Shown in pieces: positions 32,345 to 45,815 of a stretch of 56,702 bases of DNA. The stretch covers positions 1-56,702 of the forward strand of contig JANDLU010000013.1 in NCBI GenBank assembly GCA_024330215.1, given 5' to 3'. This DNA is from Candidatus Gaiellasilicea maunaloa. Lineage in GTDB: Bacteria; Actinomycetota; Thermoleophilia; Gaiellales; Gaiellaceae. Position numbers and translations under genes: made by a program. The notes beneath the pieces were generated by a model. That model saw only the letters and a list, made by a program, of their open reading frames with translations. It did no database searches and was not told where the DNA came from. Numbering within the stretch: the stretch's first letter is position 1; each line of letters begins with the position of its first letter.

Positions 32345-32385
32345 CGAAAGCACCTTGTGTTGTTCCAACACAAGGGTTTCTTTCG
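32345..32385 (+). repeat. Double-stem palindromic element, copy 1
   Basis: The inner arms CTTGTGTT (32354-32361) and AACACAAG (32367-32374) pair around a 5-nt loop. The outer arms CGAAAG (32345-32350) and CTTTCG (32380-32385) pair outside them, for 41 nt in total. The element lies 28 nt after the Cys-rich gene and 55 nt before the small gene at 32441. The 19-nt core (32355-32373) matches the reverse complement of copy 2 exactly. Confidence 0.8.
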
Positions 32386-32440
32386 TCTTTCGCGACGAAG
32401 CTGTGACGAACCGGCGCTCGGCCGTGGCGATCCTGGTGGC

Positions 32441-32788
32441 ATGCGCTTCTCGCTCTCCCGGAACGATCGTCGGATCCGCGACCTCGTGATCGCGCTCGAT
32501 CGTGACGACGTCTCGATGGCGGAGACCTGGCGCGTGGTGGGAGAAGCGGCGTGGAAGCTGGGGTTGCGCCGTCCCGGCTACCACGTGGTCCGGGATCTCG
32601 CTCGCGCCGAGCGGGCCCGCCGGGCGGCGCGGAGACACGTGAGACAGGCGGCAGCGGACGTGGTCCTCTCGCTCGGCTCGCCCTACGTCGTCGGGACACG
32701 GCGCGCCCTCGACGGGCTCGAGCTCGCACGAGCGAAGGAGAGGTTTGTGTTGGAACAACACAAGCGCTCTTCGGCCGACGATCCGTAG
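32441..32788 (+). CDS. Small basic protein of unknown function, flanked by palindromic elements
   Basis: This is a 115-aa, arginine-rich, helical protein. The sequence after the ATG at 32441 (RFSLSRNDRRIRDLVIALDR, SMAETWRVVGEAAWKLGLRR) suggests a helical DNA- or RNA-binding fold, but no family was recognised. The last residues (VLEQHKRSSADDP) are encoded by the second palindromic element, so the native C-terminus may have been replaced. The inverted placement of elements around this gene is discussed under findings. Confidence 0.55.
   Translation: MRFSLSRNDRRIRDLVIALDRDDVSMAETWRVVGEAAWKLGLRRPGYHVVRDLARAERARRAARRHVRQAAADVVLSLGSPYVVGTRRALDGLELARAKERFVLEQHKRSSADDP
32733..32773 (-). repeat. Double-stem palindromic element, copy 2 (opposite orientation)
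   Basis: The inner arms TTTGTGTT (32744-32751) and AACACAAG (32757-32764) pair with one mismatch around GGAAC. The outer arms CGAAG (32733-32737) and CTTCG (32769-32773) also pair. The total length is 41 nt, the same as copy 1, and it is its reverse complement through the core. It overlaps the last codons of the small gene. Confidence 0.8.
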
Positions 32789-44358: not shown

Positions 44359-45815
44359 GCGAGCTGACGCTCGATCGCTGGATCCGCGACCGCGCCCGGA
44401 CGACGCCGGACCGCGTGGCGATCGACTTCCTCGGCGCGGAGACCACCTACCGCGAGCTCGACGCGCGCTCGGAGCGCCTCGCTGCGGGGCTGCTCGAGGC
44501 GGGGCTCGTCCCGGGTGACCGGGTCGCCACGTTGACCGGCTCGAATCCCGAGCACGTCGTCGTCTTCTTCGCCTGCGCCAAAACCGGCCTGATCCTGCTG
44601 CCGCTCAACTGGCGGCTGGCGAACGCCGAGCTCGCCTACCAGCTCGCGGACGCCGAGCCCGCCTTGCTGCTCGCGTCGAGCGAGCATGCCGAGACCGCCG
44701 CCTCGCTGCATCAACGGAGCGCGGGGCTGGAAGACCTTGTGTTTCAGAAACACAAAGTCCTTCCTCGGATCGGCGACGACGACGGGCTCCTGCTCGTCTA
44801 CACCTCGGGCACGACGGGGCGGCCGAAGGGCGCCCTCCTCACGCACGCGAACTGCTTCTGGACGAACCTCTCGTTCGACCGGGTAGCCGGTCTCGGCGAC
44901 GAGGACGTCGTCCTCCAGCTCCTGCCGCAGTTCCACGTCGGCGGCTGGAACGTGCAGCCGCTGCTCGCCTGGTGGAAGGGCGCCCGCGTCGTCCTCGAGC
45001 CGTCGTTCGAGCCGGGTCGGGCGCTGGCCTTGATCGGCGAGAAGCGTGTGACGACGATGATGGGCGTGCCGGCGACCTACCTCTTCCTGGCCCAGGAGCC
45101 GGGCTTCGCCGACGCCGATCTCTCGAGTCTGCGCCGTGCCGTCGTAGGGGGCGCCCCGATGCCCGAGCCGCTGCTCGAGCTCTGGCACGAGCGCGGGGTC
45201 GAGATCGTGCACGGCTACGGGCTGACCGAGGCGGCGCCGAACGTCCTCTGCCTGCCGCCCGAGGACGCGGCGCGCAAACGCGGCTTCGCCGGCCGGCCCT
45301 ACCCGCACGTCGACGTCGCCCTCCGCGACCCCGAGACGGGCGCGCTCCTCGAAGGGACGGCCGAGGGCGAGCTGATCGTCCGCGGCCCGAACGTCTTCTC
45401 CGGCTACTGGCGCGATCCCGAGGCCACCGCGGCCGCCTTCGCGGACGGGTGGCTGCTCACGGGAGACATCGCCGCGCGCGACGAGGAGGGCGATTACCGG
45501 ATTGCCGGCCGGCTCAAGGACATGGTCATCTCCGGCGGCGAGAACGTCTATCCCGCGGAGGTGGAGAGCGTCCTCCACGAGCATCCGGCGGTCGCCGAGG
45601 CGGCGGTGGTCGGCGTCCCGGACGAGCGCTGGGGCGAGGCGTGCGCGGCGTTCGTCGTGCTCTCGACCGATGCCGGCGAGGAAGAGCTGATCGCGTTCTG
45701 CCGCGAGCGGCTGGCGAGGTTCAAGGTTCCGCGGGAGCTTCGCTTCGTCGAGGAGCTGCCGCGAAACTCGATGGGCAAGGTCGTCAAGTCGGAGCTCCTG
45801 GAGCGGGTCTCGTGA
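44355..45815 (+). CDS. Acyl-CoA synthetase (AMP-forming) with palindromic-element insertion
   Basis: This 486-aa ANL-superfamily ligase activates a carboxylic acid as acyl-AMP and then the CoA thioester. Motif A3 YTSGTTGRPKG is at residues 149-159, with HGYGLTEAAPN (A5), DGWLLTGDIA, GRLKDMVISGGENVYP (A8) and the catalytic lysine in NSMGKVVKSEL near the end. Residues 126-137 (EDLVFQKHKVLP) are encoded by a 36-nt palindromic repeat inserted in frame in the variable segment just before motif A3. The length is a little under the usual 500-550. Confidence 0.93.
   Translation: MSELTLDRWIRDRARTTPDRVAIDFLGAETTYRELDARSERLAAGLLEAGLVPGDRVATLTGSNPEHVVVFFACAKTGLILLPLNWRLANAELAYQLADAEPALLLASSEHAETAASLHQRSAGLEDLVFQKHKVLPRIGDDDGLLLVYTSGTTGRPKGALLTHANCFWTNLSFDRVAGLGDEDVVLQLLPQFHVGGWNVQPLLAWWKGARVVLEPSFEPGRALALIGEKRVTTMMGVPATYLFLAQEPGFADADLSSLRRAVVGGAPMPEPLLELWHERGVEIVHGYGLTEAAPNVLCLPPEDAARKRGFAGRPYPHVDVALRDPETGALLEGTAEGELIVRGPNVFSGYWRDPEATAAAFADGWLLTGDIAARDEEGDYRIAGRLKDMVISGGENVYPAEVESVLHEHPAVAEAAVVGVPDERWGEACAAFVVLSTDAGEEELIAFCRERLARFKVPRELRFVEELPRNSMGKVVKSELLERVS
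44729..44764 (+). repeat. Palindromic element, copy 3, in frame inside the acyl-CoA ligase gene
   Basis: TTGTGTTTC (44737-44745) and GAAACACAA (44747-44755) form a perfect 9-bp stem with a one-base loop. The outer arms GGAAG (44729-44733) and CTTCC (44760-44764) pair outside it. The length is 36 nt, a multiple of three, and the frame is kept. It shares the TTGTGTT/AACACAA core and the outer GAAG/CTTC arms with the two copies near 32.4-32.7 kb. Confidence 0.75.

Follow-up and report, generated by a model that had tools for sequence, protein, structure and literature searches.

A small gene for a predicted helix-turn-helix protein bracketed by inverted palindromes, and a candidate REP-like repeat system in Gaiellaceae

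Inverted palindromes bracket a conserved small gene

The window analyzed here is a 56,702-nucleotide stretch of Candidatus Gaiellasilicea maunaloa DNA (contig JANDLU010000013.1). Between a gene for a Cys-rich protein and nfo it carries one small gene enclosed by two palindromes, and a single related palindrome lies some distance to the right:

32353..32375, no strand: left palindrome CCTTGTGTTGTTCCAACACAAGG, core 32355-32373, at the same position in the sister species
32376..32440, + strand: presumed leader/promoter from the left palindrome to the start codon, with lower conservation than the gene in the sister-species alignment
32441..32788, + strand: gene for the 115-aa helix-turn-helix (HTH) protein, ATG at 32441, stop codon at 32786-32788, with an ortholog, a dN/dS estimate and an AlphaFold2 model
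32744..32764, no strand: right palindrome TTTGTGTTGGAACAACACAAG, core 32745-32763, the inverse of the left copy and falling within the 3' end of the gene
44737..44755, no strand: single related palindrome TTGTGTTTCAGAAACACAA in an AMP-ligase ORF, read LVFQKHK, outside the bracketed unit

The core TTGTGTTGTTCCAACACAA occupies 32355-32373 on the + strand and recurs, exactly inverted, at 32745-32763. The window holds no further match at three or fewer mismatches, and the chance expectation is 0 (100 shuffles), so the enclosure of the gene by inverted copies, described in a first-pass annotation of this DNA, is borne out. Each 19-nt core comprises 8-nt arms and a 3-nt loop (TTGTGTTG-TTC-CAACACAA). 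The core is thus itself palindromic, and the opposite orientation that was ascribed to the copies, although exact, hangs on the central TTC/GAA alone. The ORF at 32441-32788 is intact, encodes 115 aa and is the sole gene between the two cores; as had been annotated, its last codons (FVLEQHK) contain the right palindrome. No sigma-70-type promoter match was found in the 32376..32440 leader, and an Rfam search of the locus returned sub-threshold chance matches only.

In the sister species (G001), the ortholog is 77-78% identical and is likewise bracketed by both palindromes at a spacing of 390 bp, with nfo again as the right-hand neighbor. The two genes differ at 40 third codon positions and 26 others (dN/dS ~0.24), and their products are 91% identical across the HTH and 60% across the C-terminal part. 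The 115-aa gene is therefore real and under purifying selection. An empty counterpart of the locus, as might be looked for if the segment were a mobile cassette, was not found, since the site is occupied in G001, the sole other congener compared. In G001, the Cys-rich gene and the left palindrome are set apart by ~2 kb of extra DNA (L063:1660-3699), which the window lacks.

A Gaiellaceae protein family with a predicted homeodomain-like fold

Within one taxonomic family, which named relatives identify as Gaiellaceae (Thermoleophilia), homologs of ~100 aa occur in 44 of the 103 genomes and in 20 of the 34 genera. Two paralogs lie in this genome as well, and the gene is therefore not the orphan that it was taken for. 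A subgroup-alignment search of 84,980 species genomes, with its reach set by the peptide patterns used, returned no genomes beyond Thermoleophilia/Gaiellaceae and otherwise unclassified actinobacterial MAGs, and no relatives were found in viral contigs, phages or plasmids. Within a genus the gene loci are common to the species and inherited vertically; most genera differ in them, with no neighboring gene conserved across genera.

Searches of the family against Pfam, NCBIfam and PHROGs gave no match above noise. The same was true of Pfam at E<=10 for the window protein and ten relatives, PF01797 (Y1_Tnp) included, and a sequence search of the PDB found nothing significant. Inspection for an HUH motif revealed no invariant histidine, and the sole common tyrosine, Y47, is replaced by L or C in some members. 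AlphaFold2 confidently predicts a homeodomain-like three-helix HTH at residues ~7-60 followed by a helical C-terminal part (mean pLDDT 81; 76.5 for the model of a relative). Among PDB structures the model comes closest to homeodomains and to the domains with which TnsB and Mu transposase bind transposon ends, at weak similarity (Foldseek E >1, Z 6-7). The protein is thus predicted to be a homeodomain-like HTH of no named family. As every Foldseek match has E >1, we do not use the likeness to transposon end-binding domains as evidence of descent.

Bracketing recurs across genera and palindrome type follows protein clade

We compared the 52 family members with enough flanking sequence against 1040 random positions of the same geometry. 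A matching upstream/downstream pair of at least 8 nt flanks 33 of these genes and one of at least 10 nt flanks 27, against random-position rates of 3.8% and 0.2%, respectively; about a third of the homologs, mostly divergent members, have no recognizable pair. The spacing falls within 365-410 bp in 27 of 30 paired units (median 395). Palindrome-gene-palindrome units of the kind first noticed in the window are therefore found in several genera, with a constant length of ~395 bp. Syntenic conservation of the gene in the absence of palindromes is not the general pattern, although some divergent members are without a recognizable pair.

The palindromes are of three main types (TTGTGTT-, GTGGCTC- and AAGTAACA-type), which track the protein tree with 7 label changes, where the minimum is 6 and the shuffled mean 17.4. 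Two genomes, G105 and G010, have paralogs that fall in two protein clades, and each paralog is enclosed by its own palindrome type. At one orthologous locus in three species the palindrome reads GTGTGGACTCCACAC, TTGTGTCGAGTCGACACAA and TTGTGTTGACTCAACACAA; the sequence shifts and the arms stay complementary.

Dispersal is also seen for the GTAACA palindrome, which reaches 36 copies in a genome, and for the GTGGCTC palindrome, which reaches 57; both are patchy even within genera, copy number ranging from 0 to >50 between congeners. Gene-bearing genomes typically contain 13-57 palindrome copies, and the reversed-pattern control gave 0 in all but one genome. Among the 103 genomes, the gene is present in 28 of the 34 with at least 10 GTAACA/GTGGCTC copies and in 16 of the 69 others (p ~1e-8; Fisher tests of gene-palindrome co-occurrence gave p ~1e-8 to 6e-8, with genomes counted without phylogenetic correction). 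Mismatches run both ways: in 11 genomes at least 5 palindromes were found but no gene was detected, and 12 genomes show the opposite.

Dispersed palindromes form phased doublets and are shared by sister species

The palindrome had been described as a pair around the gene, which holds for the locus but not for the genome, where the exact TTGTGTTGTTCCAACACAA core has 35 copies. The patterns TTGTGTTGNNNCAACACAA and TTGTGTNNNNNNNACACAA match 61 and 91 times, respectively, and the reversed pattern 0 times. The palindrome pattern has 32 copies in G001, and a search for it in 59 other genomes from the family and order found none. Most of the G001 sites are occupied at the orthologous place in this genome (G000). 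Across these orthologous sites, identity is 97% in the arms, 78% in the loop, 72% in the adjacent 10 nt and 86% in the wider flanks, a contrast that overstates the conservation of the arms because sites were picked by pattern in both species, although an occupied ortholog was found for nearly every G001 locus. The base pair adjacent to the loop covaries (G-C 94, T-A 19, C-G 11), with 88% paired against 57% expected.

Many of the dispersed copies are paired as doublets, spaced 54-118 bp start to start. These spacings cluster at ~58-60, 69, 80-84, 91-94 and 103 bp, i.e. with a period of ~11 bp. By crude gene calls, the copies lie between convergent genes, within ORFs and, in many cases, at gene ends, with few between divergent genes. 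The copies have no consistent T-run beside them, and no GT(A/G)G head was seen in the sequences adjoining the cores. The two sister species also carry 17 GTAACANNNTGTTAC palindromes each, with no gene of that palindrome clade found in either; these are perhaps relics.

Full, reduced and empty states of one site

Evidence that the bracketed gene behaves as a unit comes from genus g6, at a place just after the stop codon of one gene. G036 and G105 have the complete palindrome-gene-palindrome arrangement here, G103 has a doublet and G006 a solo palindrome; in G081, G101 and G106 the site is empty, with only ~5-14 extra bases. The occurrence of all four states at one site defines the bracketed gene as a discrete block. 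In the tree of the flanking sequences the two full sites lie apart, with empty and reduced sites among them, which favors an old insertion followed by several losses over gain. No clear target-site duplication was seen in the comparison at the one g6 site, where the flanks have diverged. At a site in genus g32 no clean empty allele was found, the congener flanks being separated by other DNA or lying on different contigs. In G105 (L217, near 2213), the palindrome apparently provides the gene upstream of it with its stop codon.

These data support one half of the mobile-cassette reading proposed in the first-pass annotation. A discrete, palindrome-bounded unit exists, as the g6 states and the ~395-bp units across genera demonstrate. 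Active mobility is not borne out, given a site tree that favors loss, vertical inheritance within genera and a window locus that is occupied in both congeners.

A candidate cognate-gene unit of a REP-like system

We consider the segment to be, probably, a compact cognate-gene unit of a REP-like dispersed palindrome system, with a protein that binds its palindromes. The homeodomain-like HTH protein would bind the palindromes flanking its own gene, probably as a dimer, together with the ~60-90 dispersed copies, which include many doublets. The pair around the gene would delimit the ~395-bp unit, which could appear or disappear as a block or shrink to a doublet or a solo copy, while protein and palindrome would co-diversify so that every clade has its own palindrome. 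Binding would in turn drive or tame the spread of the palindromes. No catalytic recombinase was found in the unit, judged by the absence of a family match, the HTH-only fold prediction, the single gene and the lack of a neighbor conserved across genera. The protein shows no nuclease features and is not accompanied by a partner gene, so that any movement would depend on an enzyme acting in trans, perhaps host replication/repair or an unlinked transposase. Counting against this reading, the site tree favors losses, and most dispersed sites are common to both sister species.

The main rival, which we regard as unlikely, is a non-mobile regulator with dispersed operators. In this case an autoregulated transcription factor, or else a nucleoid-associated protein, would use the palindromes around its gene as operators that allow looping across it, and the dispersed doublets would be a regulon or a set of architectural sites. 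An HTH-only predicted fold with no nuclease motif, strongly conserved arms, doublets phased at about one helical turn and vertical inheritance within genera all fit a regulator. It is, however, at odds with copy numbers of 0 to >50 between congeners, and with copies that lie between convergent genes and within ORFs and seldom (by the crude gene calls) between divergent genes. Nor does it readily accommodate full, doublet, solo and empty states at one site, and a second copy that overlaps the gene or lies just past it would be unusual for an operator.

A distinctly less probable alternative is that the palindromes are ordinary REPs moved by Y1 (RAYT-type) transposases encoded elsewhere, the small gene being a passenger between two of them. 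PF01797 proteins do occur in 78 of the 103 family genomes, with 4 in this genome, and are weakly associated with the gene and palindromes (p 0.02-0.04). However, the TTGTG-N-CACAA palindrome is absent from the DNA examined around the four Y1 loci of this genome. Moreover, G027 (28 palindromes, 91% complete) and G113 have both gene and palindromes with no Y1 match, absences that are not firm because the genomes are drafts. We accordingly set aside the local Y1 transposases as the mover. One protein family found inside differing, clade-matched palindromes in many genera is also unlike a passenger. Least credible of all is a reading of the palindromes as transcription terminators or mRNA hairpins that flank the gene by coincidence: the left copy scores as one terminator-like site and many copies lie at gene ends, but a consistent T-run is lacking, copies occur inside ORFs, palindrome sequence follows protein clade and the doublets have quantized spacing.

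Relation to known repeat systems

The REP-like reading invites comparison with REP/RAYT systems, in which one gene lies between two palindromic repeats, usually inverted, the repeat is dispersed, and repeat and protein phylogenies match (PMC2817692). The system described here shares the flanked-gene layout, the genome-wide dispersal and a repeat that covaries with protein clade. Its protein, in contrast, is HTH-only and ~100 aa long, without the HUH motif or conserved catalytic tyrosine of RAYTs, and its repeats are AT-richer, near-symmetric palindromes without the GT(A/G)G head of REPs. As the defining protein features are absent, the system is REP/RAYT-like in its working and not a member of that group. 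The frequent doublets with a short spacer (54-118 bp) likewise recall REPINs, which are REP doublets with a spacing of 71 bp in the GI REPIN (PMC3116915); here, however, each half is a full palindrome, spacing is quantized at ~11 bp and the gene partnered with them is no RAYT. MITEs and minimal insertion sequences offer a further parallel, in that short non-autonomous repeats have ends in common with a unit that carries a gene, but the full-length unit here has no transposase, and no target-site duplication was seen at the compared site. The predicted three-helix arrangement resembles the end-binding domains of Mu transposase (I-gamma) and TnsB, a weak similarity common to many homeodomains, and the catalytic domain of those proteins is absent.

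It is possible, though short of probable, that the system arose independently of RAYTs as a REP-like partnership, selfish or domesticated, in which a nuclease-free HTH protein and clade-specific palindromes co-evolve and are spread or lost as a ~395-bp block, a doublet or a solo copy via a putative enzyme in trans. Our literature search found nothing linking Gaiellales with palindromes and no description of an HTH-only REP partner, and the gene together with its own repeat looks like a previously undescribed partnership. The palindrome systems with a cognate bracketed gene that we found in the literature involve a Y1/HUH transposase, whereas the layout and co-diversification seen here, across dozens of genomes from a little-studied bacterial family, involve an unrelated HTH-only protein. 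If binding and spread both hold true, a gene-plus-palindrome partnership can evolve without a transposase of its own, and the multiplication of the repeats, with the protein as driver or restrainer, becomes testable.

Related palindromes within coding sequences

The TTGTGTTTCAGAAACACAA palindrome at 44737-44755 belongs to a subclass found as single copies in unrelated ORFs, where it is translated VFQKHK or CVSETQ. Its hosts include AMP-ligase, biotin carboxylase, SelB-like, DnaE-like and UDG-like ORFs, among others (window 44737-44755; L032, L036, L084, L088, L089, L090, L094 and L097). Rickettsia palindromic elements similarly lie in frame in unrelated housekeeping ORFs. In contrast to those elements, TTGTGTTTCAGAAACACAA is much shorter (19-nt core) and, in the three proteins set against their PDB homologs, stands where a loop already exists and does not clearly lengthen the protein. 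The two sister species differ at one loop of a TilS-like ORF, which carries a different palindrome type in each, TTGTGTTTCTGAAACACAA and GTAGCAGTCTGTTAC (L118:1644 in G001 and L023:1859 in G000, respectively).
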